Assembly: GCA_016181005.1 (NCBI GenBank)
Contig: JACPAE010000001.1
Coordinates: 1-64,000 of the forward strand
Reading direction: 5' to 3'
Source: Candidatus Aenigmatarchaeota archaeon
GTDB taxonomy: Archaea > Aenigmatarchaeota > Aenigmatarchaeia > CG10238-14 > SCSR01
Length of the DNA stretch: 64,000 nucleotides
In this document: positions 37,252-52,100 of the stretch, one piece after another
How positions within the stretch are numbered: the first letter of the stretch is position 1
Layout of the letters: every line of letters starts with the position of its first letter
Made by a program: the position numbers and the translations under genes
Notes under the pieces: model-generated
Database searches by the model: none
The model's input: only the letters and a program-made list of their open reading frames with translations
What the model was told of the DNA's origin: nothing

Positions 37252-40200
37252 GTGTCAGACCTACTTTTGTTCCAGTCATGCTCGTGGCAATTGCAGTCTC
37301 TTTATTCTCCTCCGCAGCCCTGGCGCAGGTGCAGTCGCATCCCCTATCCCAATTGTTTCCTATTGATCTCAATCTCAGTCTAACTGGAGTGAACATAACG
37401 AATGCAGGCTATGTCTTTTTCGGCACTATCGGGATATTAGTTATTCTAAGACTAGGCGTTTTGCTTCTAGCCTCCAATTCTCTTAGAACACTTTCTTTGA
37501 CTTCGCCCTCATTTTCTAGAATAAAAAGTATCTTTCCCACATCCATTTTTATTTCATCCATTTCTTTGTGCAAGGTTTTGAATTCTTTAAGAGTTTTAAC
37601 TGGAATAAGCGTTCGCACTTTCATAAGACTTATATGCCACTTTAAACTATTAAATGTTATCCCGAGATGGGAGGGTTACCTAGTTTTGAACCCTCGCTTT
37701 TTATTTTTCTTAATTCTATCGCCCTCAGTAATAGCAATCACTTTATTCTCCTCCTCAGCTTTGGCCCAGGTCCAATCCCATCCTGTATCCCAATTATTCC
37801 CCGCAGATACCAATCTAAACCTTACAGGAGTGAACATCACTAATGTCAGCTACGTCTTCTTCGGCAACAATTCCGTTGACACCTATCTCTATAGATCAGG
37901 AACCAACACTTTGCAGACTGCCAGTCATCTGGTAGTCACAGGAGGATGGGTCAATTCAACGAATGTCAATGCATCGGCTGCCGCCTACGCTCAGACACTA
38001 TACGAGGCAGGGCAGTCTCTCGCTGACAGGTATCTCGGCATTTCGTCCCAAGCTGCGAACTCGCAACTGCTGGACAATTTCGACAGCGCTTTCTTCAATC
38101 CCTTGAACATGACCGCTTACCTTATCGGCATAAACACGACTTGGCTGAACGCGACGTACATAAACGGCACCCAGATAAATTCAACTTCTGTCAATGCGTC
38201 GGGTACCATAACCGCAAATGAATTGGTAACCAGAACCCTGAACCTCGGCTGGCAGAACCTGACTGACTATCCTACTGGTTGCTCTGCCGGACAGGCTGTT
38301 ATCACTATCGGCGACACTCTAACGTGCGGCGAAGCCGGAGGGGGGACCAACGTGTCTCTTCTGTACGGGAATAACGGCACAAATTGGCTGCCTGTGAATG
38401 TCACTAATGGCGGCATCCTCAGGCTCAATGTCCAGCAGGCCACATCAGTAGAAGCGGACAAGCTTGACAATTTCGACAGCGCTTTCTTCAATCCCCTTAA
38501 CATGACCGCTTACCTTATCGGCATAAACACGACTTGGCTGAACGCGACGTACATAAACGGCACTCAGATAAATTCAACTTCCATAAATGTGTCAGGGACG
38601 TTATATGCAAATAGGACAGCTTTCAATGGAGTTACCTACACATGGCCATCTGCTGACGGAAACGCTGATCAACTGTTGACAACTAACGCAGCTGGCACGT
38701 TAAGCTGGACGACTGTAAGCTCGACAAACAACATGACAGGCTATGGGACAGCAGGTTACGTGCCGCTCTGGTTCAACACAACGTCCCTGAACAATTCTGT
38801 GATTTACCAGCTAGGAGGGAATATAGGCATAGGGACTGCAACGCCGGGTGCTGCACTGGTGGTGAGCGGAAACGTGAATGTTACTAATAACATATCAGCG
38901 AGCATATTTTCAGGTCTTACCGGAAGCACTACCCGCATCAGAGCCACTGGCTCGACAACAGGCAACGGGAGTAACTCGTCAATTTATTTCTTAGACTCCA
39001 CCGGCGCTACGAAGGCGCGCCTTGAGACAGGCGTCACTTCCACGCCAGGCACAGGATTCGACGGGGATTTAATTGTCACTCCTAGTATCATCAGCAACAT
39101 CCCTAATATGACAATTAACAACATTTCAGCAAAAATTAGTACCACGGCAAACTCTGGGCAATTGCTTATAAATTTGGCGTCGACCGGCGGCTTTTATGCC
39201 GGCGATGAAGTGCTCATTATCCAGATGAATGGGACTGGCACCGGCACCTTCGAAACGCGCTTTATCAGTTCGGTCATCAATAGCACGTACATAAACTTGA
39301 CTGCAAATCTTGCGAATACCTATGTCGAGAATGCGACAAGCGACGCGCAGGTGGTTAGGATTCCTCACTATCAAAATGTGTTTGTCAAAAGCGGGATGAC
39401 GCTTACTGCTCCTGCATGGAACAATGTAAGTGGGACAGGCGGGGTCCTCATTTTCCGCGCCCAGAACTCTGTGGTTATTGAGGCGAATGGGACTATTAAC
39501 ATGACTGGCAAAGGATTCAATTCGTCTACGCCGGCGGGTGGGATAGCTGGTCCGGCCTCGGTAAAACAAGGCAGGAACGGAACGAATGGGGACGGACCTG
39601 GTGGGGGAAGAGGGGGAACGAATGGAGGTATTGCGGGCAATTCGGGCGGTACGAGCGGTGGCACTGGTGCAGGTTGCTGCAGCGGCGCTGGCGGGGGCGG
39701 AAGTTATGCGGGCGGTGCGACCAATGGGACGAATGGGGGAAATGCAAGCGGTGGTGCGGGCGGAGGAGGCGGTGCGGGTGGTGTCAATTCGTCTGGCCCT
39801 GGTAGTGTAAACGGCTCAATTAATGGAGTGGCCGACCTATCTTCCAGCATCTTCATGGGCTCGGGTGGCGGTTCAGGTGCGGGCGGGAATGTAGGCGGCA
39901 ATGGAAGCGTTGCGGGCGGAGGAGGCGGTGCGGGCGGCAACGGTGGCGCGGGCGGAGGCATCATAATTATCAATGCGTATACGATAATAAACAATGGAAC
40001 CATAGCGAGCAATGGAGCTAGTGGAGCCCGCGGTGTAAACGGAAGTAATGGAGTTGGTGGCTCCAGCGGCGGCGACGGTGGTGGTGGGGGCGGGTCGCAT
40101 GGTGCCCCTGGAGGAGGCGGTGCGGGCGGCTCAATCTGGTTAAATGCTAGGACAGTGATACTTGGGAATGTTACTGCCTCTGGCGGGATTGGCGGGTCAA

Positions 40201-41069
40201 GCAACGAAAGCAAAAGCGGCAACGGTGGCTCCGGCGCTGGCGGTTTGGACGATGGTGAAAGTTGCACTCTCCAAGATGGCCACGGCGGCGGCGGCGCTGG
40301 CGGGAATATTAATGGCACCGGAGGCTCAAGGGGATTCAATTCTCTTTGTGGTAGCGCTTCCAATGGTAAAAACGGGACTGCAACCGTCAACGGCAATGCG
40401 ACCGGTGGCACTGGTGGCAGTGGCCGCATAAAATGCGACGGCACTTGCACAGGAGCAACGGCTCCGGCAAGCGGCTCCAACGGCACGTACTCTGCCGGCG
40501 GAAATCCAATCGGCTACGGCACCTTGTTCATAGGGAGCGTTGTCACAGACTCGGCAGACGTGGCCGAATATTACCGGATAATCGACCAGTCTATCGAACC
40601 TGGCGATGTAGCCGCGCTTGGGTCGCAGCCGCGCTATCCGGACCAGCCTGGCGGGCCTAAGATTTACGGCCTGAAGAAAACCAGCCAGGAATACGACCAG
40701 CATGCAATCGGCGTCGTCTCCACCAAGCCTGGAATTGTCCTGGGCTCTGACGACAGCCAAGACCAACGCCTTCTGGCGCTGGCCGGACGAACGCCTGTGA
40801 AAGCGTCTGCCGAAAACGGGCCTATTGAGATAGGCGACGCTCTAGCACCATCGTCCAAGCCTGGCACGGCTATGAAAGCGACCCAAGCAGGACAGATAAT
40901 AGGCTATGCGTTAGAGCCTTTGGAGCAGGGCGAGGGGAAGATACTTGCTTTTGTGAATGTCGGCTACTATGTTCCGGCGGAGGAGTACAAAAGAATAAAG
41001 TCCGTGCTGGAGAATTTGGTGGAAAGGGTCGGTATTTTGGAGAGGTTGGTGGGAGCGAATGGAAAATGA
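37248..41069 (+). CDS. Giant Gly-rich adhesin / tail-fibre-like protein
   Basis: 1273 residues if read from 37248. Residues 1-61 are a signal peptide and start of a domain (GVNITNAGYVFFG) that is repeated, complete, from about 160 (ALAQVQSHPVSQLF...GVNITNVSYVFFG); between them lies sequence antisense to another ORF, so the working start may be TTG at 37686 behind GGGAGG. Then come repeated modules: TAYLIGINTTWLNATYINGT (twice), LNNSVIYQLGGNIGIGT (tail-fibre-like), a beta-helix-like Gly-rich block (about 765-1060, GGAGGGG patterns), and a C-terminal domain (DSADVAEYYRI, GVVSTKPGIVLGS, GRTPVKASAENGPIEIGD, AMKATQAGQIIGYALE) seen at the end of many fibre proteins, ending in a short coiled coil (ENLVERVGILERLV). 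Confidence 0.7.
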   Translation: MSVRPTFVPVMLVAIAVSLFSSAALAQVQSHPLSQLFPIDLNLSLTGVNITNAGYVFFGTIGILVILRLGVLLLASNSLRTLSLTSPSFSRIKSIFPTSIFISSISLCKVLNSLRVLTGISVRTFIRLICHFKLLNVIPRWEGYLVLNPRFLFFLILSPSVIAITLFSSSALAQVQSHPVSQLFPADTNLNLTGVNITNVSYVFFGNNSVDTYLYRSGTNTLQTASHLVVTGGWVNSTNVNASAAAYAQTLYEAGQSLADRYLGISSQAANSQLLDNFDSAFFNPLNMTAYLIGINTTWLNATYINGTQINSTSVNASGTITANELVTRTLNLGWQNLTDYPTGCSAGQAVITIGDTLTCGEAGGGTNVSLLYGNNGTNWLPVNVTNGGILRLNVQQATSVEADKLDNFDSAFFNPLNMTAYLIGINTTWLNATYINGTQINSTSINVSGTLYANRTAFNGVTYTWPSADGNADQLLTTNAAGTLSWTTVSSTNNMTGYGTAGYVPLWFNTTSLNNSVIYQLGGNIGIGTATPGAALVVSGNVNVTNNISASIFSGLTGSTTRIRATGSTTGNGSNSSIYFLDSTGATKARLETGVTSTPGTGFDGDLIVTPSIISNIPNMTINNISAKISTTANSGQLLINLASTGGFYAGDEVLIIQMNGTGTGTFETRFISSVINSTYINLTANLANTYVENATSDAQVVRIPHYQNVFVKSGMTLTAPAWNNVSGTGGVLIFRAQNSVVIEANGTINMTGKGFNSSTPAGGIAGPASVKQGRNGTNGDGPGGGRGGTNGGIAGNSGGTSGGTGAGCCSGAGGGGSYAGGATNGTNGGNASGGAGGGGGAGGVNSSGPGSVNGSINGVADLSSSIFMGSGGGSGAGGNVGGNGSVAGGGGGAGGNGGAGGGIIIINAYTIINNGTIASNGASGARGVNGSNGVGGSSGGDGGGGGGSHGAPGGGGAGGSIWLNARTVILGNVTASGGIGGSSNESKSGNGGSGAGGLDDGESCTLQDGHGGGGAGGNINGTGGSRGFNSLCGSASNGKNGTATVNGNATGGTGGSGRIKCDGTCTGATAPASGSNGTYSAGGNPIGYGTLFIGSVVTDSADVAEYYRIIDQSIEPGDVAALGSQPRYPDQPGGPKIYGLKKTSQEYDQHAIGVVSTKPGIVLGSDDSQDQRLLALAGRTPVKASAENGPIEIGDALAPSSKPGTAMKATQAGQIIGYALEPLEQGEGKILAFVNVGYYVPAEEYKRIKSVLENLVERVGILERLVGANGK
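37409..37624 (-). CDS. Small protein inside the duplicated adhesin N-terminus
   Basis: 71 residues: MKVRTLIPVKTLKEFKTLHKEM, helical charged middle (ENEGEVKESVLRELEARS), ending IPIVPKKT. The last residues are read from adhesin sequence, so the native 3' end is probably lost. It resembles small antitoxin-like proteins, without a definite family. Its insertion separates the two copies of the adhesin start. A TATA-like TTTAAAGTGGCATATAAG precedes it on the minus strand. Confidence 0.45.
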   Translation of the reverse strand: MKVRTLIPVKTLKEFKTLHKEMDEIKMDVGKILFILENEGEVKESVLRELEARSKTPSLRITNIPIVPKKT

Positions 41070-43669
41070 ATGAAATAAAAACAATCACAAACTTGACTAA
41101 AAATGATAATGAATCAGGTAGAAACAGAAGATTGCTCTTCATCTTATCGGCATTAGCAGCACTGTTATTTTTATCTATACCAGCATTGGCAGAAACCAAC
41201 GTAACCCTTCTGTACGGCTGGAACGGCACGGCTTGGATACCTGTTTCTGTAGACAACAGCGGCGTGCTTCAGACTGACTTGAACCTCACCGAAAGCCTTA
41301 GCATACTCCCGAAATCAAACAACGCATACGACTTGGGAGCATCTAGCTTGAGGTGGAGGGATCTTTATGTCGCTAGGAATGCGTACTTGGCAACAACTTC
41401 TGGCAGTGTCGGGATAGGAACCGGCAGCCCGTTATCAACTTTGGACATATCAGGCAACCTGTCTGTATCAGGTAGCACTAACTCGAGCATAGACATCTCC
41501 ACGCTGTTCATAGACGCCACCAACAACAGGGTCGGAATCGGGACGACATCGCCGAGTGCTGCACTGGAGGTGAACGGAAATCTTATTGCTGGGACTTGGA
41601 TCAATGGAACCAATTTCAATGCAACATGGATCAACAGCACTAACCTAAATGCGTCAGGGACCATAACCGCAAATGAACTGGTGGCCAGAACCCTGGAGCT
41701 CGGCTGGCAGAACCTGACAGACTATCCCGGCGCTTGCACGTCAGGGCAGTTTGTTTCTGCACTGGGGGATTCGATAACTTGTGGGAGCCCAACAAACAAC
41801 ATGACAGGCTATGGGACAGCAGGCTATGTTCCTCTCTGGTTCAACACAACGTCCCTGAACAATTCTGTGATTTATCAGCTAGGAGGCAATGTCGGCATCG
41901 GGACTACTAATCCAACTCAGAAACTGCATGTAGAAGGGAGAGTGAACATCACACAAAACTTGACTGTTGGTGGAAACTTGACTATTAGTGGCGATATACT
42001 TCCTAGTGTTGCGCCTATCACTGATCTGGACATATCTGCATCAGGTAGTATAGTAATGGCACTGGGCTCAGACGGATTCGCAAGGATTGCATATGGTGAA
42101 ACCACTACTCAAGACCTTAAATTTATACGATGCCCAAATGAGAATTGTTCAGAAAAGGTTGCCACTACAGTGGAAAGCACTCTCAATGTCACTACAAGTT
42201 CAGAGATTATAGCAATTGCTTTGACCAGTACCGATAATGCAATGATCGCATATGGAAATGGAACTTCTTCAGGCACTGGTCTTTATTTTGTTCAATGTAC
42301 TAACGCCGACTGCTCGACAAATGTCAAAACAACAATATCTACAACCAATCAGGTAACTACATTAGACATGCGGGTAGGAAGTAATAACTTTGCCCGAATT
42401 GTCTATTCAGATGCCGGCACTCTTCGCTACATAGAATGCACCAATGCCGCATGCAGCACGAGGACTGATAACTCGCTAGGAGGCAATTCCTTTGCACAAC
42501 CACTCGCTTTGGCATTAAATAGCACAGGCTCTGGGAAAATAATTGTAACTGGGCCCGCCAGTAGTTTTTGGTTTATACAATGCATCAATGCCGCATGCAG
42601 CACTAATGCTTCCACCGCGTTAAATAGTTATACCGGTTCTACCGCTGCAGACATAGAAGTGGCGAGCGACGGGCTTCCAAGAATTTTGATAGCAGCTGAA
42701 AGCAATTGGGGCTGGGATTACTACAAGTGTACTAACGCCAATTGCACGACAAATGAAAGAGTGGATTTACCTGGTTTAGGTTCTGGTACTGCATCTATAG
42801 ATCTTGATTCAAACGACCTAGCTATTATTGTTACAAGCGCAAATGTCTTAAGATGCACCAATGACAATTGTTCTACTTCTGCTCAAAATGATGTGGGAGG
42901 GTTTGGAACTATAAATACTAAAGCTCTCAGGATTAATGACACAAGCAATCTACCCAGATTCGTCAGCATTTTCGGGAGCCCAAGTAAGTCTTTCTTTTGG
43001 GCATGTAAAGATGCATTATGCGAAAATCTTGGCTCAAGTCTTGGCTCAAACACAACTTATTTCTACAGGGTATATGCCCATACCTTCAGGGGCAAGCAAA
43101 CAACTGTCGATAGCTTCGACGTTGCAGAAGACTATGCTGTCCGGGATACTACCATTGGACCAGGAGACGTTGTTATTGTCAGTCCCAATCAAAGCCGCGG
43201 GACAGGCGATGTCAACAGCGATATTTATGTGGACAAGTCAAGCAAGCCCTACCAAAGCGATGTAATTGGCGTTATCTCCACAAAGCCAGGCGTGCTGCTC
43301 TCAGATGACAGCACGAATTCCCAAAAACGCCCTGTATCATTGAGCGGCAGGGTGCCTGTTAAAATATCAACTGAAAATGGACCAATAGCTGTAGGTGATC
43401 TCCTCACTTCTTCATCAACTCCTGGCGTGGCAATGAAATCGACCAAAGCAGGCAGGGTAATAGGAGTTGCCCTCGAGTCTACCGACAGCAACGGCAAGGT
43501 TATTGTCTTCGTCAATCCGCATTACTGGGATGGTGATGAACTCTCAAAGCTTAGGACAGAGAATGAGGGATTGAGATTGAGAATTTATGAGCTTGAGGCA
43601 GGATACAAAGAAATGAAATCTCTGCTGGAGAGTTTGGTTGAAAGAGTCGGATTTATAGAAAGAAGGTGA
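41066..43669 (+). CDS. Second adhesin / tail-fibre-like protein
   Basis: 867 residues; ATG overlaps the first adhesin's stop by 4 bases. Signal peptide to about 43 (LLFILSALAALLFLSIPALA). Residues 45-300 repeat fibre modules shared with the first protein (SNNAYDLGASSLRWRDLYV, GTTSPSAALEVNGNL, GYVPLWFNTTSLNNSVIYQL, GNVGIGTTNPTQKLHVEG). Residues about 315-650 hold seven or so blades of about 45 residues ending C(T/I)NxxCST, a propeller-like array. The C-terminal domain (DVAEDYAV, GVISTKPGVLLSD, GRVPVKISTENGPIAVGD, GRVIGVALES) and coiled coil (MKSLLESLVERVGFIE) match those of the first. Together probably a surface appendage. Confidence 0.75.
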   Translation: MNEIKTITNLTKNDNESGRNRRLLFILSALAALLFLSIPALAETNVTLLYGWNGTAWIPVSVDNSGVLQTDLNLTESLSILPKSNNAYDLGASSLRWRDLYVARNAYLATTSGSVGIGTGSPLSTLDISGNLSVSGSTNSSIDISTLFIDATNNRVGIGTTSPSAALEVNGNLIAGTWINGTNFNATWINSTNLNASGTITANELVARTLELGWQNLTDYPGACTSGQFVSALGDSITCGSPTNNMTGYGTAGYVPLWFNTTSLNNSVIYQLGGNVGIGTTNPTQKLHVEGRVNITQNLTVGGNLTISGDILPSVAPITDLDISASGSIVMALGSDGFARIAYGETTTQDLKFIRCPNENCSEKVATTVESTLNVTTSSEIIAIALTSTDNAMIAYGNGTSSGTGLYFVQCTNADCSTNVKTTISTTNQVTTLDMRVGSNNFARIVYSDAGTLRYIECTNAACSTRTDNSLGGNSFAQPLALALNSTGSGKIIVTGPASSFWFIQCINAACSTNASTALNSYTGSTAADIEVASDGLPRILIAAESNWGWDYYKCTNANCTTNERVDLPGLGSGTASIDLDSNDLAIIVTSANVLRCTNDNCSTSAQNDVGGFGTINTKALRINDTSNLPRFVSIFGSPSKSFFWACKDALCENLGSSLGSNTTYFYRVYAHTFRGKQTTVDSFDVAEDYAVRDTTIGPGDVVIVSPNQSRGTGDVNSDIYVDKSSKPYQSDVIGVISTKPGVLLSDDSTNSQKRPVSLSGRVPVKISTENGPIAVGDLLTSSSTPGVAMKSTKAGRVIGVALESTDSNGKVIVFVNPHYWDGDELSKLRTENEGLRLRIYELEAGYKEMKSLLESLVERVGFIERR

Positions 43670-43688
43670 ATGAAATAGCCACGAGCCA

Positions 43689-43787
43689 ATAAACCATGTC
43701 GACCAGATGCCGACTATCTTGACCTTGATGGGGGTCGAAGTTCCTTCTTATGTGCAGGGAAGAGTCCTGACCGAAGTTGTGAAATAG
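43689..43787 (+). pseudogene. 3' fragment of a sulfatase/phosphodiesterase-like gene, copy 1
   Basis: In frame: INHVDQMPTILTLMGVEVPS, then a stretch ending GRVLTEVVK and TAG. This is the usual C-terminus of alkaline-phosphatase-superfamily enzymes (D.APTIL.LMG.P.....GRVLTE). No start and no catalytic part: a dead tail. Related tails occur at 45629 and 46773. Confidence 0.7.
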
Positions 43788-43793
43788 ACACGT

Positions 43794-43815
43794 CACCTCC
43801 AACCCATAGGCTTAA
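43794..43815 (+). repeat. Border repeat M, copy 1
   Basis: CCTCCAACCCATAGGCTTAA, first of six copies of a 22-31-base motif (consensus ATCTCCAACCTATAGGCTTT) at module borders in 43.7-51.9 kb. Here it follows the first dead sulfatase tail and precedes the DUF5678-protease module. Confidence 0.6.
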
Positions 43816-43854
43816 CTAGAGAATCTTTAATTGTCTCAAGGCCAATTTTATATT

Positions 43855-44055
43855 ATGAAAGTGGAATTCAAAGCTAAAATAGACTATGAAAAATACGGCG
43901 GGAAATACATTGCTATCTTGGACAACGAAACTATTGTTGGTGGCGGTGAAGACGTAAAGGAGGTATGGGAAGAGGCGAGAAAAAAGTATCCGGACGGGAA
44001 AATATCTCTTATGAAAGTTTCTCGGCCGCAATTAATGATTTTGATATGCAAGTAG
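43855..44055 (+). CDS. DUF5678 small protein
   Basis: 66 residues from MKVEFKAKIDYEK. YGGKYIAILDNETIVGGGED and VWEEARKKYPDGKISLMKV are the DUF5678 pattern. It overlaps the following aspartic-protease gene by 10 bases, a pairing that recurs in archaea and looks like a two-gene module. TATA-like ATTTTATATT sits directly before the start. Confidence 0.7.
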   Translation: MKVEFKAKIDYEKYGGKYIAILDNETIVGGGEDVKEVWEEARKKYPDGKISLMKVSRPQLMILICK

Positions 44056-44450
44056 AGTTCCCGTTTGTCATGGAAAAGGCCTATGTCATTGATTTTATTT
44101 CACGGCCTTTCGCAGAAGTCGCCCTTATAGGTGATATTAATGAGATAACAGAGTGGTTTTTCGTTGATTCCGGTGCCGATGTGTCTCTGATTTCACGAAG
44201 ACTTGGAGAACTTTTGGGGTTTAAACTAAAAGAAGGCGAAGAAATTAAACAATTATCTGGTATAAGCACTGGCACAGTTCCTTATATTCTGAGGACGATT
44301 AAAATGAGGATAGGGGAAAAAGAATTTGATGTAAGAATTGCGTGGAGTTTGGTGGAAGAAGTGCCATTGGTTTTAGGCAGATTGGATGTTTTTAACAAGT
44401 TTGATATACTGTTTAAAGAAAGGGAAAATAAGGTAATATTTTCAGATTAG
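44046..44450 (+). CDS. Retropepsin-like aspartic protease
   Basis: 134 residues from MQVEFPFVMEKAYV. WFFVDSGADVSLISRRLGEL carries the D-S/T-G active site of single-domain (dimeric) aspartic proteases; LVLGRLDVFNKFDILF is the second conserved segment. Start chosen at 44046, overlapping the DUF5678 gene; the family fold begins there. Substrate unknown. Module flanked by border repeats M1 and M2. Confidence 0.75.
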   Translation: MQVEFPFVMEKAYVIDFISRPFAEVALIGDINEITEWFFVDSGADVSLISRRLGELLGFKLKEGEEIKQLSGISTGTVPYILRTIKMRIGEKEFDVRIAWSLVEEVPLVLGRLDVFNKFDILFKERENKVIFSD

Positions 44451-44470
44451 GTCTTAACAATTTTAATATT

Positions 44471-44575
44471 ATCTCCGACCCATAGCTTTTTAATGTTCAT
44501 AAAGTCTAAACCAAAAACTAGATTTAATCCACAAAAGCCAAACATTATTTCGAATTATTCCCGTTGCATGCCGTC
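44471..44575 (+). repeat. Composite border repeat M2-F, copy 1
   Basis: Motif M (ATCTCCGACCCATAGCTTTT, 44471-44494) is followed directly by an 80-base element F (44495-44575). The same M-F arrangement recurs at 45707-45810 with high identity; partial F copies are at 45319-45360 and about 47871-47903. Each F copy lies at the edge of a toxin-antitoxin module. Confidence 0.65.
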
Positions 44576-44623
44576 TACAGAAAGAATGAAGATGAAAAAT
44601 AAAATACTGGTTTATTCGGACAA

Positions 44624-45031
44624 TCATAACCCAAGCAATTTTACTACATCTTCTGTAGTCAACGCTTCCACAACAGATTGTTGCTTAAAATCCGGGTCAT
44701 TTGACCAAATAGGACAATTATATTTCAATGCCAAAGCAAAATACTGCACATCATCCGGATCTGGAGATATTTTCTCAGCTTTAGATAACCATTCTTTGAA
44801 ATCTTCAGCCGGCTCTATTTCCACACGTGTTATAAGCAAACTAATGAACAAATTAAACTCGTCTTCGGACAAACCTGACTTTTCCAGTATCTCATATTTA
44901 TGCTCTTCTATTTCTCCAAAAATCCAATCTGGCACTATAGGTTGCAATTTATCAGAAAAAAACAAGTCTAAAGTAAAGCCTCTGCTTATTAATGCAGAAA
45001 CAAAGATATTGGCATCTGCGACTAGAAGCAT
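44624..45031 (-). CDS. vapC: PIN-domain toxin VapC
   Basis: 135 residues. LLVADANIFVSALI (Asp), DWIFGEIEEHKYEIL (Glu), PDPDDVQYFALALKYNCPIWSNDPDF (Asp cluster): complete PIN active site, predicted site-specific RNase. The stop of vapB and its start adjoin without gap. Flanked by F repeats at 44495 and 45319. Confidence 0.88.
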   Translation of the reverse strand: MLLVADANIFVSALISRGFTLDLFFSDKLQPIVPDWIFGEIEEHKYEILEKSGLSEDEFNLFISLLITRVEIEPAEDFKEWLSKAEKISPDPDDVQYFALALKYNCPIWSNDPDFKQQSVVEALTTEDVVKLLGL

Positions 45032-45259
45032 TTACATCAATTCACGATATCTTTTTGCCAACCCCCTGTTTATTTTCCTGCCTAATTCTAACGCATCCTT
45101 TTCCGTAAGCTTGCTTTTAGAAGCTATATCTCTTAACACAGCCAATTGTGTCGCCCTCTCTTTTATAGCCTGCCTGGCTACTTCAGACCAATTTATCTCT
45201 GGGAACTGCTCCATCTTCCTTTTCAAATCTTCTGGCACAGACAAAGTAATGTTAGCCAT
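45032..45259 (-). CDS. vapB: Antitoxin VapB (ribbon-helix-helix)
   Basis: 75 residues from MANITLSVPEDLKRKM, the standard RHH start; PEINWSEVARQAIKERA is the second helix. The C-terminal half (LTEKDALELGRKINRGLAKR) should wrap VapC. Start 45259 preferred over an in-frame ATG 12 bases earlier. Confidence 0.85.
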   Translation of the reverse strand: MANITLSVPEDLKRKMEQFPEINWSEVARQAIKERATQLAVLRDIASKSKLTEKDALELGRKINRGLAKRYRELM

Positions 45260-45318
45260 ATACTCACACATAAATTATGTGTATTCACAGTATTTAAATG
45301 TTTGGTGCGCATGGTTTG

Positions 45319-45360
45319 AAGCCAGACATTGTTTCGAATTATTCCCGTTGCATGCCGTAT
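45319..45360 (+). repeat. Partial F repeat
   Basis: Covers the last half of element F (GAAGCCAGACATTGTTTCG...GCATGCCGTAT), closely matching 44540-44575. It forms the outer border of the vapBC module and is fused directly to the Fic remnant. Confidence 0.6.
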
Positions 45361-45550
45361 ACATCCTTTCGAAAGCGGTAATAGAAGAACAGCGATAGTC
45401 GCCACTGCCTCATTTTTAGAGGTAAACAGCGAAAAGCTTAATATCATACATGACGTAAATATATTGCAGGGTGTTAGGGAAATCTATTATACAGACGAGG
45501 AAATAAAAGAGTGGATAAGAGGAGGGAAAATCCGTGCGTTCGAAAGATGA
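45361..45550 (+). pseudogene. Fic/Doc-family remnant
   Basis: Reads HPFESGNRRTAIVATASFLE, the Fic active-site motif (HPFx[D/E]GNxRT), then helices to IKEWIRGGKIRAFER and a stop. The N-terminal half of the Fic fold is missing, replaced by the F repeat. Intact Fic/Doc proteins transfer AMP or phosphate to targets. Confidence 0.65.
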
Positions 45551-45611
45551 ATTCATTAGAAGATCAGAAAAATTCATTAAGAGAGAGAGAGACTGTTTCT
45601 GCAGAAAGTAG
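45534..45611 (+). pseudogene. Truncated small gene after the Fic remnant
   Basis: GTG at 45534, overlapping the Fic end, opens MRSKDEFIRRSEKFIKRERD and stops after 25 residues where sulfatase-tail sequence begins. The overlap and helical charged sequence suggest the start of the natural partner gene of the Fic/Doc protein, cut by recombination. Confidence 0.4.
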
Positions 45612-45628
45612 GTAAGATGTAGACTATG

Positions 45629-45694
45629 GCCTTGATGGGGGTCGAAGTTCCTTCTTATGTGCAGGGAAGAGTCCTGACCGAAGTTATAAAGTAG
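45629..45694 (+). pseudogene. Sulfatase-like 3' fragment, copy 2
   Basis: ALMGVEVPSYVQGRVLTEVI then Lys and stop: the same tail as at 43689 but shorter at its 5' side. DNA identity to the other copies continues beyond the stop codon into motif M, showing that a block of DNA rather than only protein was copied. Confidence 0.65.
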
Positions 45695-45706
45695 ATGGTT
45701 TCAGTC

Positions 45707-45810
45707 ATCTCCAACCTATAGGCTTAACAGTTCATAAAGTCTAAACCAAAACCAGATTTAACCCACAAAAGCCAAACATTACTTCGAGTTCTTCCGTTGC
45801 ATGCCGTATA
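45707..45810 (+). repeat. Composite border repeat M3-F, copy 2
   Basis: Motif M (45707-45728) followed by element F (45730-45810), the direct repeat of 44471-44575. It abuts the 3' end of the HTH-RelE module (45825). Confidence 0.65.
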
Positions 45811-45824
45811 TCCGAAACAATAAA

Positions 45825-46157
45825 TTAGTATTCGAATCTTCTTTCATAATCCTTGTGCGGCAACCATTCCAATATTATCGCGACAATACTTACCTCGCTG
45901 CCAGCAACAGAATAAAGAAGCCTCCAGCCATCCGGCAAGTCGTATTTCCATAGGTTGTTTATTCCATATTTCTGTATGTAAATTTTCGGTATTAGTCTTT
46001 TTGGAACATGAATGCCACAGAAAGGATTTTTCTTGAGGTCGTCTATAGCCCGGCTAATGAATTTATGTAGCTCAGGGTTCCTCCCTTTAACCTTTTCAAA
46101 TGCTTCCTTTGCTTTTTCATCAGCAAAGGTAACAAAAATCGTTCTATCTGGTTTCAT
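45825..46157 (-). CDS. RelE/ParE-type toxin
   Basis: 110 residues from MKPDRTIFVTFADEKAKEAF. HKFISRAIDDLKKNPFCGIHVPK, YGINNLWKYDLPDGWRLLYSV and IVAIILEWLPHKDYERRFEY follow the RelE/ParE fold (ribosome-dependent mRNase or gyrase inhibitor). A longer reading from 46208 would run into the upstream gene; 46157 overlaps its stop by 4 bases. Confidence 0.85.
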   Translation of the reverse strand: MKPDRTIFVTFADEKAKEAFEKVKGRNPELHKFISRAIDDLKKNPFCGIHVPKRLIPKIYIQKYGINNLWKYDLPDGWRLLYSVAGSEVSIVAIILEWLPHKDYERRFEY

Positions 46158-46423
46158 GCAACCGCTAGGTGGGATTTTAAATACTTTTCCACAAGTTGGG
46201 GATTCCATATCCAGATTATTTTACCGTCTCTGATTACAATCTTTTCCGATTCTTCCAGATAGTCAAGAATCAGGTTGAAGGTCTGGTACATGACTTTCTT
46301 ACGTAAAGAGAGCCAAAGCTGCCTTTTGGAAGGGTATTCTCCAGCTTTCCTGATAGCCTCCTCCACCATTAATACGGTATCCAATCTTGGATAGTGGAGC
46401 AGTTGCAGTCTTTGCCTTTTCAT
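46154..46423 (-). CDS. Helix-turn-helix antitoxin partner of RelE
   Basis: 89 residues from MKRQRLQLLHYPRLDTVLMV. A winged-helix-like body (AIRKAGEYPSKRQLWLSLRKKV, YQTFNLILDYLEESEKIVIR, DGKIIWIW). Overlaps relE by 4 bases. Reading further upstream would pass through antisense adhesin sequence, so the start at 46423 is preferred; a TATA-like TATATATAATAG precedes it. Confidence 0.7.
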   Translation of the reverse strand: MKRQRLQLLHYPRLDTVLMVEEAIRKAGEYPSKRQLWLSLRKKVMYQTFNLILDYLEESEKIVIRDGKIIWIWNPQLVEKYLKSHLAVA

Positions 46424-46457
46424 ATTATATAGATATATATAATAGTATTTATATCTT

Positions 46458-46727
46458 TCAGGCAGCGTCGGCATCGGGACGACAACTCCACAAGACAAAC
46501 TAAACATAGTAGGAGGAGATTTGAACGTCACAAACGGCAACATAACATTAAACGGGACACGTACAGGGATAATATTTAATGACGGGAGTTTTCAATCCGG
46601 TGGTACATTTGGTGGAGTGATGCTTATAGCCAACAATCAAGGATGCGATACTGGTTGGACTCTAAAGGATAGTAATATGGTATGGGTTTCTGGTGGCCCT
46701 ACCCTAGATGCATGCTGGATATGCTAA
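46458..46727 (+). pseudogene. Adhesin fragment starting at the NVGIG motif
   Basis: Reads SGSVGIGTTTPQDKLNIVGG, VTNGNITLNGTRTGIIFNDG and ends ...GPTLDACWIC. It matches fibre modules of the adhesins at 38.8 and 41.9 kb but has no start; its left end is fused to the promoter side of the HTH-RelE module. The C-terminal 30 residues (LIANNQGCDTGWTLKDSNMV) differ from both adhesins, so it stems from a third gene. Confidence 0.65.
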
Positions 46728-46772
46728 AAAGGTGAATGAAAAATGAAAACACAAACATCAAATGAAATCTTT

Positions 46773-46931
46773 ATCGAGCACCATCTACGCCAACAATAGC
46801 CGTGGTGTGATTAAAAAAGAAGTCCTGGACAAGCCCATAAACCATGTCGACCAGATGCAAACTAGGCCCTAATGGGGATAGAAGTTCCTTCTTATGTGCA
46901 GGGAAGAGTCCTGACCGAAGTTATAAAGTAG
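46773..46931 (+). pseudogene. Sulfatase-like 3' fragment, copy 3 (frameshifted)
   Basis: Longest tail copy: SRGVIKKEVLDKPINHVDQM, a stop, then in the next frame LMGIEVPSYVQGRVLTEVIK. A small deletion has shifted the frame. Followed by motif M4. Confidence 0.65.
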
Positions 46932-46943
46932 ATGGTTTCAGTC

Positions 46944-46974
46944 ATCTCCAACCTATAGCCTTTTAATTGCCAAT
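46944..46974 (+). repeat. 31-bp direct repeat M4, left border of abrB-mazF
   Basis: 31 bases beginning ATCTCCAACCTATAGCC and ending TTGCCAAT. Copies at 47707-47737 and 51830-51860 differ by one base each. This copy and the next enclose the AbrB-MazF module. Confidence 0.75.
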
Positions 46975-47055
46975 CCAAGTTAACTTGGTTTTTAAGATTA
47001 AGAAAGACACTAATCTTTAAATACTAATCATACTAATTTGATTATATTGATTGAT

Positions 47056-47337
47056 ATGAATAGGATGCCGGCTAAGGAAAGGATAAGAACTGTAAACATA
47101 AGCGAAAGGGGCCAGCTTGTTGTGCCCGAGGATATCAGAAAAGACCTGGGGATTAAAGGTGAGGAAACCCTGGTGTTAATAGAAAAGGGCGATGAAATAG
47201 TGCTGAAAAGGGAATCTGATGTTCTTAAAATGATGGGAAGCGAGGACGCTTTCTGGAAAACGTTGTCTGAAAAGATAATGGAAAGGGCCTGGGAAAAGGA
47301 AGACGAAATTTGGGACAGCATATCCAAGGCGAGTTGA
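47056..47337 (+). CDS. AbrB/SpoVT-type antitoxin
   Basis: 93 residues from MNRMPAKERIRTVNISERGQ; MPAKERI (47065) is also possible. RGQLVVPEDIRKDLGIKGEE is the swapped-hairpin AbrB DNA-binding fold; the acidic C-terminal half (MERAWEKEDEIWDS) should neutralise the toxin. Overlaps the toxin start by one base. Confidence 0.82.
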   Translation: MNRMPAKERIRTVNISERGQLVVPEDIRKDLGIKGEETLVLIEKGDEIVLKRESDVLKMMGSEDAFWKTLSEKIMERAWEKEDEIWDSISKAS

Positions 47338-47675
47338 TGTACCAGCAGGATCTAGTTTGGGTACGGCTTCCTTTCAGCAGTCTTGAAGACAGTAAAATCA
47401 GGCCGGCCATTGTAGTGTCCAACAATGGTTACAATAAAAGATACGAAGATATTGTTGTCTGCGCTATCACGTCCAAGCTGGAAGAAACTCCATATAGTAT
47501 TATAATTGATCAGAAGAATATTTCAAGTGGAAGGTTGCCTGTTAAGAGCAGGATAAGAGCAGATAAAATAATGCAAATAGAAAAGAGTTTGGTGGTCAGG
47601 AGTTTTGCGAGACTTGACGATGAGACATTTGACGATCTAGTCAAGTTAATAACAAATCTTGTGAAAAGGATCTGA
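47337..47675 (+). CDS. MazF/PemK-type endoribonuclease toxin
   Basis: 112 residues from MYQQDLVWVRLPFSSLEDSK. IRPAIVVSNNGYNKRYEDIVVCAITSK and GRLPVKSRIRADKIMQIEKS follow the MazF/Kid SH3-like barrel, with Arg and Thr/Ser active-site residues. Sequence-specific mRNA cleavage is the family function. Module lies between 31-bp direct repeats. Confidence 0.85.
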   Translation: MYQQDLVWVRLPFSSLEDSKIRPAIVVSNNGYNKRYEDIVVCAITSKLEETPYSIIIDQKNISSGRLPVKSRIRADKIMQIEKSLVVRSFARLDDETFDDLVKLITNLVKRI

Positions 47676-47706
47676 CTGCGTATATGAAGAAATTACTTGC
47701 CAATTT

Positions 47707-47737
47707 ATCTTCAACCTATAGCCTTTTAATTGCCAAT
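47707..47737 (+). repeat. 31-bp direct repeat M5, right border of abrB-mazF
   Basis: One mismatch to M4 over 31 bases. Downstream sequence (ATTCATTTCTAAGGAGGG) matches the leader of the DUF378 gene at 51861-51886, so this copy carries that gene's promoter and ribosome site. Confidence 0.75.
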
Positions 47738-47758
47738 TCATTTCTAAGGAGGGACAGA

Positions 47759-47860
47759 TTGAGAATTGATGAGCTTGAGGCAGGATACAAAGAGATGATA
47801 TCTCTGCTGGAGAATTTGGCGGAAAGAGTTAGGATTCTGGAAAAGGCGAATGAAAAATGA
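47759..47860 (+). pseudogene. Adhesin C-terminal coiled-coil fragment behind DUF378 leader
   Basis: From TTG at 47759: MRIDELEAGYKEMISLLENL and so on, stop at 47860. It matches the last 33 residues of the second adhesin. It is preceded by AAGGAGG, spacer and TTG copied from the DUF378 leader, so a 33-residue coiled-coil peptide could actually be made. Confidence 0.55.
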
Positions 47861-47870
47861 ATAACTTATC

Positions 47871-47903
47871 ACTTCGGGTTCTTTCCCTTTGCATGCTGTT
47901 TAC
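47871..47903 (+). repeat. Diverged F repeat
   Basis: ACTTCGGGTTCTTTCCCTTT followed by GCATGCTGT resembles the end of element F (compare 45781-45805). Abuts the end of the UPF0175-DUF3368 module. Confidence 0.4.
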
Positions 47904-47909
47904 CAAAAT

Positions 47910-48239
47910 CTACTTCCTGATTGCATGTTCTATTCTTCTTCTTGCAAGCGAGACGTCCTGCATTATTGGTATGCCTCTTTTGTCCAATTCTGACTGGAAG
48001 TCCCAATAGTCTAATCCGGCTCTAGCAGCAGCCTCCCTTAAAGTTATGTTTCCTTCAACAAACTTCTCCACAGCCAACTTGATCTTCTCCTCTTTTATTG
48101 TCTTGGTCACCAGTTGCCTAATGGCTGTAGACCTGTCTTCCAATCTCATTTTTGCAAGCGCGTCCACCTCTTTCAACAGAGACCTGTTAAACATCACATT
48201 TACTCTTGTCAATTTATCATTCGTTCTCAATGTTCTCAC
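47910..48239 (-). CDS. UPF0175-family antitoxin
   Basis: 109 residues. N-terminal RHH-like part (TRVNVMFNRSLLKEVDALAK, DRSTAIRQLVTKTIKEEKI) and a C-terminal HTH of UPF0175 type (VEKFVEGNITLREAAARAGL, YWDFQSELDKRGIPI). It follows the DUF3368 toxin gene with 23 bases overlap; the usual order is antitoxin first. Confidence 0.8.
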   Translation of the reverse strand: MRTLRTNDKLTRVNVMFNRSLLKEVDALAKMRLEDRSTAIRQLVTKTIKEEKIKLAVEKFVEGNITLREAAARAGLDYWDFQSELDKRGIPIMQDVSLARRRIEHAIRK

Positions 48240-48735
48240 CCCTTTTCAAATATTCTTCACTAACCTTCAAGCTGATTCTGTTTTTAGTAACCAAGTCTTT
48301 AATCAGATTTTGAAATTCACTGCTTTCAATTTTCTTGTCTTTCAGCTGTTTAAAGATTATGTCTGGAGTTGAAATCGTTTGTATTCCTAATGTTTCTGCA
48401 ATTTTAGCCAAGTCATCGTCGTCGGTCAATAATTCTTTTGCATTAATCTGAAGAGCCAGAGATATTACTGAATGGTCGCCAATCTTCAACTCCTTTCCTA
48501 GTTTTTGTTTTGCAACTTGCCAACTTCGTTCCGTCACCTTCTTAGATTTAATAACAGCTTCGTTAAATAGAGACTCGATTAACACTGCGTCCGTCAATTG
48601 TTTCTCCTTACCTTCTTTTACAGTTTCCTTATAAACATATTCTGGAGCCACTATTTCTTTTCCCATTTCCTTTAACATATTCAATCTCCCAATCTTAGCT
48701 AGCGAGATTAGTGTAGAAGAGTTCGAGACAATCAT
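48217..48735 (-). CDS. DUF3368 PIN-domain toxin
   Basis: 172 residues from MIVSNSSTLISLAKIGRLNM, the standard DUF3368 start. IVAPEYVYKETV, IGDHSVISLALQINAKELLTDDDDLAKIAETLGI hold the acidic PIN residues. A much longer reading from 48951 is antisense to the sulfatase gene and is rejected. TATA-like ATATTTAAAT lies 30-40 bases upstream. Confidence 0.85.
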   Translation of the reverse strand: MIVSNSSTLISLAKIGRLNMLKEMGKEIVAPEYVYKETVKEGKEKQLTDAVLIESLFNEAVIKSKKVTERSWQVAKQKLGKELKIGDHSVISLALQINAKELLTDDDDLAKIAETLGIQTISTPDIIFKQLKDKKIESSEFQNLIKDLVTKNRISLKVSEEYLKRGENIENE

Positions 48736-48780
48736 ATACACACTATATAATATTAAATGTGTAAACATATATTTAAATCT

Positions 48781-48852
48781 TCTGGCAATGTCGGCATCGG
48801 GGCTAGAAGGCGGATGAAAAATGAAAACATATTTACATTGAACCATCAATAA
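48781..48852 (+). pseudogene. Short adhesin scar (NVGIG plus 3' end)
   Basis: SGNVGIGARRRMKNENIFTL then NHQ and stop. The NVGIG coding motif is joined directly to sequence matching the 3' end of the adhesins (GGATGAAAAATGAAAAC, compare 46731 and 47853), so the interior has been deleted. Lies between the DUF3368 promoter and the first sulfatase gene. Confidence 0.55.
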
Positions 48853-48858
48853 TATTCG

Positions 48859-50289
48859 ATGAGCAAAGCTGTCTTCCTCCTTATTTTTGTTCTCCTGCTC
48901 AGCGGGTGCACACAGGGCAATACAGGCGCCGTAAAATCCGGCGATGTTCAATCACCCGAAACTTTCAAATCGCAGTTGTCGGATTCTTGCCGTGGCTGCA
49001 ATGTCCTCATCATAGGAATCGACACCCTCAGGCCCGACCACAGTTCCGCCTTCGGCTATTCAAAAGACACGACGCCCAACCTTGCCGAGTTCGCCGACGA
49101 AAGCTATGTGTTTTCAAACGCCATCTCGGCGGCGCCTTGGACCGTGCCGTCATTCATGACGATGTTCACAGGGGCCTACCCGTCCGACCACAAGGTCGTG
49201 AACAAATACGAGATATTCGACGAGACCCGGCAGGTGATTTCCAACCTTAAAAAACTGTCGCCAGAAGCGGTGACCTTGACCGAGATGCTCAAGTCTTACA
49301 ACTACAGCACTGCAGGCTTTACAGGGGATGCCGGCGTCAGCGCGCAATTCGGCTACGGATCCGGTTTTGATTATTATCTGGATGACAAGGCATTTGCTGG
49401 ACTAGACCATTCCGCTAACCCTGCTCTTGAATGGCTCAAGGCAAACAAGACAGGGCCTTTTTACATGTTCCTGCACGGATATGACCTGCACGGCCAATAT
49501 GACATTACCGGCAGCTTCAGCGGCAGGTTCCTTGATTTCGACTACAACGGCTCATTCACCGGATCCAAAAAGGAAGAGGCAGTCCTGAGGGAGAAAGTCG
49601 TGGCCAACGAGCCGCTTAACCTGACCGGTGACGATGCCAGATTCTGGCTGGCGGTTTACGATGAAAAGGTGTACAACGCCGACCAGCGGTTCGGCCAGTT
49701 CTGGCGGGAATTCAAGGAAATGGGCCTTGACAGAAACACCATAGTGATAATAGTTTCGGACCATGGGGAGGAGTTTTACGAGCACCAGATGTTCGACCAC
49801 GGCCATTCGCTTTACGACGAGCTGATACATACTGCGCTGATTATGCACCTGCCTTCAGGAGAACGCCGTGTTGTGACTGACCAAGTGCGTACCATAGACA
49901 TACTGCCCACAATTTTTGACATCCTTGGCAAGCCTGTTCCTGCAAATGCAATAAAGCAGGTGAGGGGTGAAAGTCTTGTTCCAGTGATGTCCGGAGGCCA
50001 TTGGCAGCGTGATGCCTTCTCCGAGACGGACTATCGGCTTTACACCCACAAGCGTTCGATAAGGACATACGACGGCTGGAAATTCATCAAGACTTTCGAA
50101 GACGGCCGAACTGAGCTGTACAATTTAAACACAGATCCGGGTGAGCAAGCCAACCTCAATGAAACACAGAGGCAAAAGGCGTACGAGCTTGAGCAGAAGC
50201 TTTACGTCTTTATGCGGATGACGAACCAGGACGAGAACAAGCTGAAAATATTGGGATGCTTGCCCGTTTACCCCGAGGAGTGCAAATGA
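48859..50289 (+). CDS. Sulfatase-like lipoprotein 1
   Basis: 476 residues. Lipobox LLLSGC at 15-20. Alkaline-phosphatase-superfamily core: VLIIGIDTLRPDHSSAFGY (metal Asp), SAAPWTVPSFMTMFTGAYPS with Thr in the nucleophile position, VIIVSDHGEEFYEHQMFDHGHS (metal Asp/His), RTIDILPTIFDILG. The canonical sulfatase C/S-x-P-x-R is absent, so it may be a phosphodiesterase or phospho-/sulfo-transferase such as phosphoglycerol transferase. Exported, membrane-tethered. Overlaps the next gene by 4 bases. Confidence 0.85.
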   Translation: MSKAVFLLIFVLLLSGCTQGNTGAVKSGDVQSPETFKSQLSDSCRGCNVLIIGIDTLRPDHSSAFGYSKDTTPNLAEFADESYVFSNAISAAPWTVPSFMTMFTGAYPSDHKVVNKYEIFDETRQVISNLKKLSPEAVTLTEMLKSYNYSTAGFTGDAGVSAQFGYGSGFDYYLDDKAFAGLDHSANPALEWLKANKTGPFYMFLHGYDLHGQYDITGSFSGRFLDFDYNGSFTGSKKEEAVLREKVVANEPLNLTGDDARFWLAVYDEKVYNADQRFGQFWREFKEMGLDRNTIVIIVSDHGEEFYEHQMFDHGHSLYDELIHTALIMHLPSGERRVVTDQVRTIDILPTIFDILGKPVPANAIKQVRGESLVPVMSGGHWQRDAFSETDYRLYTHKRSIRTYDGWKFIKTFEDGRTELYNLNTDPGEQANLNETQRQKAYELEQKLYVFMRMTNQDENKLKILGCLPVYPEECK

Positions 50290-51812
50290 GAAATGCTGTT
50301 CTTCTTATCCTTCCTCTGCTTTTACTAAGTGGGTGCTCCCAGAATACGACTGGTGTTAACAACACTGTCAATTCATCACAATATTCAAGCGGACAGTTCA
50401 ACGTCATCCTGATTTCTGTGGACAGCCTGCGGTATGACCATCTTCGGATGTTCGGCTACGAAAGAGATACAGCCCCTGCTCTGGAAAAGTTCGCACAGGA
50501 AGGCGTCTCTTTCGACAGTTATATCACTCAAGCGTACCTGACTCCCATATCAGAAATGGCTCTCCACACCGGCCAATATCCTACATCAAGCGGCGCTGTT
50601 TCATTTGACACAGTCCTGCCCGAAGACAAGACGACGCTGGCGCAAATATTGAAAATTTACGGCTACCGCACGGCCGCTATAGGGACGTCGCCGGAGTTCG
50701 AAAACCATCCGGCATTGCGCAAGAGCTTCGAAAAAGGATTTGACACATACAAGATAAGTGATGCCAGAATCGGAAGCGACATTGATACAAGCACGAGCAC
50801 GATAAAAGAATGGATAAGTGAAAACGGCACTAAATTCTTTCTGTGGCTCCCGATTGGGAGCATCCACTGGCCTTACGGGAATTTCAAGCCAACGGACAAA
50901 TACGGCAAGTTCTTGGACCCCGACTATCAGGGATTTTTCTACAACAAGGACCCGCTTAACTGGAATGAGCTGGGCAAGATATACCAAAAGCAGTATTATG
51001 TGTTCGATGGCGACAAGCCAACTGGAGAAAAGAAGCCGCTTACGGATGACGACTTTGCTTGGATGGTGGACCAGTACGACGGCAATATACTGCGATTTGA
51101 TGATTGGCTGGAGGAATTCCTGGATGCTCTGGACGAACTAGGCATGCGCAACAACACAATAATCGTTATCGCTTCCGAGCACGGGGAGGATTTTGGAGAG
51201 CATGGATATATAGCGCATTATGACATTTTCGACACGCAAATCAGGACTCCGCTGATTATAGTCGCCCCGGGATTTCCCAAAAATGTAACCATTTCCGACC
51301 AGGTTCAAAGCATAGATGTGCTTCCGACCATACTTGACATGCTGGCGATATCAAAGCACCACCAGATACAGGGGAGCAGCGTTTTGCCCCTTGTCAACGG
51401 TTCGGTCACATCGTTTAACGAGCATGTCTTTATAGAAAGGATTCCTTTGTGGGAGCATGTGATATCAAGAGGTGCAACAACACTGTATCCATACAAGGAA
51501 TTTTACGAGCTGGACAAGGAAAGCCACTTCAAGGATGTCGCAGTCCGCACCAAGGAGTGGAAACTGATATACAGACAGAGCCGTGATATACAGCAGAATT
51601 ATTCATGGTGGGGATATTTGACAGAAACACTCCCGACTATTGAAGAATATGAGCTTTATGACCTTAGAAACGATCCTATGGAAACCACAAATGTATATGA
51701 CCGTTATCCGAAGGTTGCTGGTGCTTTGAAAGAACTGCTCATAGAATGGCTGCAAAAGGAGGAACGAAATAGTGCAGGAATGGCGTTGGATTATCGTCAG
51801 GATTATTTTTAA
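50286..51812 (+). CDS. Sulfatase-like lipoprotein 2
   Basis: 508 residues from MRNAVLLILPLLLLSGCSQN (lipobox LLSGC). VILISVDSLRYDHLRMFGY, PISEMALHTGQYPTSSGAV, VIASEHGEDFGEHGYIAHYD and QSIDVLPTILDML are the superfamily landmarks. In place of the formylglycine motif it reads YLTPISEMALHTG. Paralogous to the preceding gene; coupled by ATGA. Substrate unknown, likely a surface glycan or lipid. Confidence 0.85.
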   Translation: MRNAVLLILPLLLLSGCSQNTTGVNNTVNSSQYSSGQFNVILISVDSLRYDHLRMFGYERDTAPALEKFAQEGVSFDSYITQAYLTPISEMALHTGQYPTSSGAVSFDTVLPEDKTTLAQILKIYGYRTAAIGTSPEFENHPALRKSFEKGFDTYKISDARIGSDIDTSTSTIKEWISENGTKFFLWLPIGSIHWPYGNFKPTDKYGKFLDPDYQGFFYNKDPLNWNELGKIYQKQYYVFDGDKPTGEKKPLTDDDFAWMVDQYDGNILRFDDWLEEFLDALDELGMRNNTIIVIASEHGEDFGEHGYIAHYDIFDTQIRTPLIIVAPGFPKNVTISDQVQSIDVLPTILDMLAISKHHQIQGSSVLPLVNGSVTSFNEHVFIERIPLWEHVISRGATTLYPYKEFYELDKESHFKDVAVRTKEWKLIYRQSRDIQQNYSWWGYLTETLPTIEEYELYDLRNDPMETTNVYDRYPKVAGALKELLIEWLQKEERNSAGMALDYRQDYF

Positions 51813-51829
51813 AGTTTCTTAAATCTATT

Positions 51830-51890
51830 ATCTCCAACCTATAGGCTTTTAATTGCCAATCCCTAATTCATTTCCAAGGAGGTGCAGACA
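51830..51890 (+). promoter_or_regulatory. Motif M6 as promoter/leader of the DUF378 gene
   Basis: The 31-bp motif (51830-51860) contains the palindrome CCTATAGG and a TATA-like CTTTTAAT; about 30 bases later AAGGAGG sits 7-8 bases before TTG 51891. This is the one place where the motif precedes an intact gene, so the border repeat probably derives from this promoter. Confidence 0.5.
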
Positions 51891-52100
51891 TTGAAAGACA
51901 TGGATGCAGTAAGCTGGGTAGCTGTCATCTTGCTAGTCGTAGGAGCCCTTAACTGGGGACTAGTCGGATTAGGCGGATTCATGGGTACAGACTTGAATGT
52001 TGTTCACATGCTACTAGGCAGCATATCTGTGCTAGAGAACGTTGTCTATGTGCTGGTAGGACTTGCCGGTATATGGAAGCTTTGGAAATTGTTCATGTAA
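51891..52100 (+). CDS. DUF378 membrane protein
   Basis: 69 residues from TTG (M)KDMDAVSWVAVILLVVGALN; ATG at 51900 is an alternative. Two transmembrane helices and the DUF378 signature VGALNWGLVGL...YVLVGLAGIWKLW. Function unknown. The excellent AAGGAGG favours the TTG start. Confidence 0.82.
   Translation: MKDMDAVSWVAVILLVVGALNWGLVGLGGFMGTDLNVVHMLLGSISVLENVVYVLVGLAGIWKLWKLFM

Follow-up and report, generated by a model that had tools for sequence, protein, structure and literature searches.

Positions 43.7-48.9 kb of the window analysed here (64,000 nucleotides of contig JACPAE010000001.1 of a Candidatus Aenigmatarchaeota archaeon) hold an array of five two-gene toxin-antitoxin (TA) or TA-like modules and a Doc/Fic remnant, interleaved with dead gene ends and repeats. 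We propose that the array is probably a stack of short TA or TA-like modules that entered independently, each through insertion with long target duplication (ILTD), and the locus is best read as a hot spot for TA insertion. A sequence-only reading had described five two-gene modules and a Fic remnant alternating with gene fragments, a picture borne out by Pfam and by repeat comparison. The window is part of a contig that we designate C5, and the genome comprises 740 kb in five contigs. It is referred to as G000, and its congeners as G001-G004.

Results

In a flank-against-flank test, the left flank of each module was compared with its right flank and scored against 300 shuffles. VapBC, MazF, UPF0175-DUF3368 and a small open reading frame (ORF) at an adhesin head beat all 300 shuffles (p below 1/300). 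VapBC lies between two copies of a sequence that we term the T repeat, 45 bp long and 93% identical (44535..44579 and 45319..45363, both + strand). More T sequence is found nearby, with 44493-44590 matching 45707-45824 at 83% and a third copy at 45732..45812 (+; 83% to 44495-44590); the closest T pair is the one flanking VapBC, at 93% versus 70-85% for the others. AbrB-MazF is flanked by a 34-bp duplication (94%) consisting of copies B (46944-46977) and C (47707..47758, +) of the promoter of a DUF378 gene located at the right end of the locus. The UPF0175-DUF3368 module carries 27 bp of adhesin-end sequence on both sides. Its left duplicate (47843-47869) ends a dead adhesin tail (47746..47869, +), of which 47746-47855 is 83% identical to 43562-43675, and its right duplicate (48807-48832) belongs to an adhesin fragment and end (48780..48832, +). 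The fourth case takes the pattern to the left of the interval first noted. Here, a minus-strand ORF of 71 aa (37409..37624; antitoxin-like by size and context, without a Pfam match) is framed by a dead adhesin-head copy (37289..37425, +) and the intact adhesin head (37730..37866, +), which are 77% identical over 137 bp. The 72-bp core of this direct repeat (37289-37360 / 37730-37801) scored 74, against a shuffle maximum of 25. Since every module has a different pair, copied from the sequence next to it, the border repeats look like insertion products and not like shared recombination sites. They appear to be duplicated target DNA, that is, local gene-end or promoter sequence.

The sequence-only reading had also noted short sequences recurring at the module borders. 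These repeats are real and, within the genome, confined to this locus, but they vary between modules, and a 33-bp element among them (repeat family D1; at 46944, 47707 and 51830) represents the promoter/leader of DUF378, a conserved gene at 51882. The original copy A (51830..51862, +) is conserved 5' of DUF378 in congeners, with ATTATCTCCAA(Y) found upstream of the gene in G001, G002 and G003. Copies B and C, around MazF, have a common substitution that is missing from copy A; copy C is 94% identical to 46944-46977 and 80% identical over 61 bp to 51828-51888, and it retains the leader with a Shine-Dalgarno-like stretch. Copies E (43792..43816, +) and F (44471..44494, +) lie farther left, and copy D adjoins a sulfatase-type tail described below. 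We also considered the border repeats as genome-wide promoter or terminator elements and rejected this reading, the 33-bp element being locus-confined and belonging to DUF378.

An unbiased scan for local direct repeats, with tandem paralogues set aside, was run on the genome itself and on G002 and G003. In the genome itself, it found repeats around a ParE gene and its partner between pdhB and pdhC (52 bp, 96%), and a second pair of DUF5678 and aspartyl protease genes (26 bp, 100%). A PIN gene (27 bp, 96%) and a RelE-like pair that has no Pfam match (34 bp, 94%) are framed as well. Framed loci in G003 comprise HicBA, VapBC, RelE and a BrnT/DUF4258-like pair. Those in G002 comprise two ParE/RelE loci, two PIN loci and DUF4258-DUF2283, along with an HTH/HEPN-like pair without a toxin-family Pfam match and a pair of ribbon-helix-helix (RHH) and C39-like genes. 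One more PIN case was found in another genus (G013:C6, 125 bp at 80%). Because single scattered TA modules in this genome and in two congeners bear the same signature, no array-specific system is needed.

The C39-peptidase-like gene (named by eye) and its small partner carry this duplication mark both in G003 (C2:51953-52860) and, with the RHH partner, in G002 (C2:80349-81249); such pairs are candidate new TA-like pairs.

We tested enrichment with TA loci defined by Pfam family in the three congeneric genomes, using small genes as controls. Repeats frame 9 of 36 family-defined TA loci and 22 of 1656 small control genes (Fisher's test, odds ratio 25, p=4e-9). Among the 22 framed controls are several TA-type genes outside the four families listed. 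With the array left out, 8 of 31 TA loci are framed (p=2e-8).

Single-copy empty sites in relatives were found for cases outside the array's own modules. In G002, the right edge of the locus carries an insertion of an antitoxin-like gene and RelE between DUF378 and the neighbouring HTH gene, framed by a 36-bp duplication; the same gap measures 35-39 bp in G000, G001 and G004 and is single copy by alignment. An 83-bp duplication in G003 is likewise single copy in G000, and the PIN insertion of our genome is missing from G001 and G002. The junction of pdhB and pdhC (G000 C4:93637-94231, L030) is a second insertion hot spot, at which the small-gene insertions differ among the four congeners examined. 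Behind the pdhB stop stands a relic made of the first 16 codons of pdhC, and the intact pdhC follows past the module. G001, G002 and G003 have other or further inserts at this junction, and the one in G002 duplicates the end of pdhB instead.

Across twenty selected cases, the duplications span 22-115 bp (median 45.5) and the inserts 369-1022 bp (median 693). Neither terminal inverted repeats nor a common motif at insert ends or targets was found in these twenty.

Gene content was judged by Pfam, with several matches under the curated cut-offs. The modules consist of two adjacent small genes from toxin and antitoxin families, as expected of type II TA systems, and the DUF5678-protease pair is TA-like by context only. 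Two modules are on the plus strand and three on the minus strand. From left to right, the array begins with a DUF5678 protein (43855..44055, +; PF18929, 1.2e-14) and its TA-like partner, a retroviral-type aspartyl protease (44046..44450, +; PF13650). These are followed by a VapC-like PIN toxin (44624..45031, -; PIN_2, 7e-24) with, upstream of it, a gene without a Pfam match that is VapB-like by position (45032..45271, -). The Doc/Fic remnant (45362..45550, +) preserves the C-terminal 62 aa with the Fic motif and is 74% identical in nucleotides to an intact 134-aa gene in G014 (L045); the homology begins at 45361, and the start of the remnant is the exact end of the T repeat. Next are a RelE/YoeB-like toxin (45825..46157, -; PF06769, 8.5e-4, under cut-off) and its HTH-like antitoxin partner (46154..46423, -; no Pfam match). 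A homologous pair occurs in G007 and other genomes, and the homology to G003 and G007 ends at or before 46457. The AbrB/MazE-like antitoxin (47056..47337, +; PF04014, under cut-off) precedes the MazF/PemK toxin (47337..47675, +; PF02452, 2.6e-17). The last pair is a UPF0175 antitoxin-like protein (47910..48239, -; PF03683, 6e-10) and a DUF3368/PIN-type toxin-like protein (48217..48738, -; weak PIN match, under cut-off). In other genomes, homologous modules occupy other sites and have the operon alone in common with those here; homology stops near the module border.

The sequence-only reading had placed intact relatives of the fragments directly beside the array, and this holds for the adhesin: an intact adhesin-like surface protein of 867 aa (41066..43669, +; no meaningful Pfam match) is matched at this locus by a homologue in G004 and, more weakly, by one in G002, and one further fragment (46457..46727, +) shows 71-79% repeats to 41884 and 48780. 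It does not hold for the sulfatase-like tail, which has no intact parent at the locus; the two intact sulfatase/phosphodiesterase-superfamily genes on the right (48859..51812, +; PF00884, 7e-38 and 2e-39) are domain relatives only, and no close homologues of the sulfatase were found in the scan of the named genomes. The sulfatase-type tail and its downstream sequence are present in three copies, 81-93% identical over 110-140 bp. Copy 1 (43681..43790, +) has a weak SGSH_C match, copy 2 together with DUF378 promoter copy D occupies 45615..45730 (+; 93% to 46853-46962), and copy 3 runs into promoter copy B (46829..46977, +), the left duplicate of MazF. Because copies 2 and 3 have decay marks in common, namely a three-base loss and in-frame stops, these tails were also duplicated when they were already dead DNA.

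The locus is bounded on the left by a conserved gene (35408-36058) and on the right by DUF378 (51882..52100, +; PF04070; syntenic in G001-G004) followed by the HTH gene (52137). G002 and G003 retain this order; its right side is found in G001 and G004 too. The conserved HTH gene groups the genome with groundwater MAGs of Candidatus Aenigmatarchaeota. The anchors are 15.8 kb apart in our genome. In G002, where a single 2414-aa ORF occupies the adhesin position, they are 7.7 kb apart, and in G003 the distance is 17.3 kb; the G003 interval holds a 13.8-kb run of N and a pair, named by eye, of the DUF433-DUF5615 type. The G004 contig begins within its adhesin gene. None of the five array modules was found at the locus in congeners, the N-filled part of the G003 interval being unreadable. 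Aligning the locus among congeners had been suggested as a check, and it showed that relatives lack the array modules and so do not have the module order in common. Different content between identical anchors agrees with the earlier proposal that TA modules are repeatedly captured in a variable surface-gene locus.

Four of the ten PIN-domain genes in the genome lie within C5:36-54 kb. One stands at the left edge of the locus (window 36215-36694) and has diverged relatives (~70% nucleotide identity) at C1:100-102 kb. Elsewhere in the window, a perfect 35-bp direct repeat (59785-59819 and 60616-60650) has one copy inside an aminotransferase gene and the other upstream, with no module recognised between them. 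A likely diversity-generating retroelement at G000 C4:115690-117148 (L031) comprises a reverse transcriptase and a template/variable repeat pair that differs almost only at template adenines; a 99-bp stretch of this region (C4:115889-115987) is found again at C4:125992-126089. Finally, L086 (MGIS01000016.1) is a contig labelled as a Wolfebacteria bacterium on which Aenigmatarchaeota genes stand in archaeal order; it is probably mis-binned.

Discussion

We propose that a piece of roughly 0.4-1 kb, with little beyond an operon and its promoter, would enter beside or just inside a gene end, and that 20-140 bp of the target would become duplicated on both sides of the insert. One target copy would preserve the neighbouring gene or promoter, and the other would persist as a relic, be it a dead gene tail, a dead head or an orphaned promoter. 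Entry would most likely involve a short fragment captured at a staggered break, followed by fill-in of the overhangs and joining of the ends. Among survivors, a first filter might be that the duplication leaves the neighbouring gene intact. A second could be that an addictive module resists loss, if losing a TA pair is costly; stabilisation by the toxins is plausible. If such insertions recurred at a single permissive surface-gene locus flanked by conserved anchors, the mosaic would result. Target duplication accounts for many of the broken gene ends between the modules. Duplication lengths vary, and neither terminal inverted repeats nor an end motif were found, which disfavours Xer/pdif sites as well as a classical transposase of the kind that leaves a target duplication of fixed length; an mRNA intermediate is disfavoured because the inserts appear to include the promoter.

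Several observations weigh against this proposal. The DUF5678-protease flanks share a weak repeat (74% over 23 nt), and for RelE-HTH and Doc the flank test detected no significant repeat immediately on both sides; the DUF5678-protease and RelE-HTH modules are framed by weaker or longer composite repeats only. We infer that the remaining array modules entered by ILTD as well. The sulfatase-type tails arrived with further segmental duplication. Of the 36 family-defined TA loci, 27 have no detectable repeat, owing either to age or to other routes, and none of 7 TA modules in the outgroup E. coli K-12 is repeat-framed. The pattern may be lineage-specific, or it may merely be younger in this genus than in E. 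coli K-12. Some non-TA genes are framed too, including an 841-aa helicase, a 441-aa ORF and an adenosyltransferase-like gene, and the route of the TA modules may also be open to larger non-TA inserts. The helicase-like gene lies at G000 C1:49543-52324 between 60-bp direct repeats (85%).

It is unlikely that the array is instead a decaying tandem array of adhesins and sulfatases, shaped by unequal crossing-over and hit by chance TA insertions, in which the border repeats are surface-gene remains unlinked to the insertions. The adhesins are indeed paralogous and internally repetitive, and the decay marks of sulfatase-type tails 2 and 3 point to dead pieces duplicated after decay. However, the same brackets surround TA modules at single-copy housekeeping genes such as pdhB and pdhC, where there is no tandem array, VapBC is flanked by the closest T pair, and the empty sites outside the array hold a single copy. 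Integration of a DNA circle by a single (Campbell-type) crossover would yield direct repeats of the shared stretch around an insert, as would unequal recombination between strains whose different modules adjoin the same short sequence, and repeats of 30-140 bp could serve this purpose. Yet donors would already have to carry the local gene end beside the module, which is implausible for many unique targets, and homologous modules elsewhere lie at other sites without these flanks; we regard this route as very unlikely. The tight module boundaries, together with two tyrosine recombinases elsewhere in the genome, might suggest that the modules are moved by an unrecognised enzyme dedicated to mobility, whether Xer/dif-type, Cas1-like or a trans-acting transposase, but the widely varying duplication length and the lack of terminal repeats and of a common end or target motif make this highly improbable. 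That TA modules move by a dedicated or TA-dependent route, whether through an unrecognised enzyme or through the toxin acting at breaks, seems doubtful; if true, bare TA operons would be autonomous mobile units without a transposase.

The sequence-only reading had favoured an integron-like cassette array without a known recombinase. Archaeal integrons and clusters of attC sites lacking an integrase (CALINs) have been reported, with attC sites in Aenigmatarchaeota and with TA cassettes (PMC9668308), and they resemble the present locus as arrays of small TA-rich modules in a variable locus. Our own scan for R''/R' pairs with a stem found no canonical attC in 43.6-48.9 kb and no high scorer genome-wide, and the array gave no match to Rfam RNA families. 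As that reading had stated, the locus has no transposase, integrase or resolvase; no IntI-type tyrosine recombinase lies near it, and the only PF00589 matches are far off, at C2:88744 and C5:184120. Modules in both orientations, and repeats that vary per module, include coding tails and appear to be duplicated target DNA, further separate the array from an integron or CALIN. We therefore rejected this explanation, to which we give next to no credence.

Other known arrays are similar in outline. In Rhs/CDI polymorphic toxin loci, orphan-tip arrays are found; as here, small modules are interspersed with dead ends displaced from surface genes, but those arrays combine toxin tips with immunity genes, whereas our modules are self-contained predicted TA operons. 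The pdif sites are conserved inverted 28-bp XerCD sites, and the modules that they delimit are small, TA-carrying and flanked by short repeats, without a transposase. Such pdif (Xer) modules are named for Acinetobacter plasmids in PMC7885321. The inserts described here share the small size, TA cargo, short flanking repeats and absence of a transposase in the module. In contrast, they are flanked by direct repeats with a different sequence at each site, and conserved inverted sites of ~28 bp are lacking; we rejected pdif/Xer modules on these grounds.

The closest parallel is ILTD of restriction-modification (R-M) systems, reportedly described by Nobusato et al. in 2000 and by Furuta et al. in 2010. 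In that process, which is known for R-M systems (PMC3874152; PMC3031569), addictive two-gene modules are inserted without a mobile-element enzyme and leave long, variable direct target duplications (of the order of 100 bp) that are recognised by genome comparison. Direct duplications of variable length, within the tens to hundreds of base pairs expected of ILTD, are present on both sides of four array modules, the others having weak or composite repeats. The inserts have neither terminal inverted repeats nor a transposase, the latter as judged by Pfam for the array modules and for some of the other inserts. The cargo is not an R-M system but type II TA or TA-like, which makes this a variant outside the R-M set. 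The host here is a DPANN archaeon, and the duplications are shorter (22-137 bp), many per genus and several stacked in one locus. We found no report of ILTD for TA modules or in archaea in the open-access literature searched.

These duplications bear on the question of how bare TA operons move between genomic sites without a mobile element. As datable and countable insertion events that predict empty sites, they make TA mobility and retention measurable from sequence, and they explain many dead gene ends at the locus without a recombinase. Under our proposal, Kobayashi's ILTD would no longer be confined to restriction-modification systems but would also operate in archaea and on the other main class of addiction modules.

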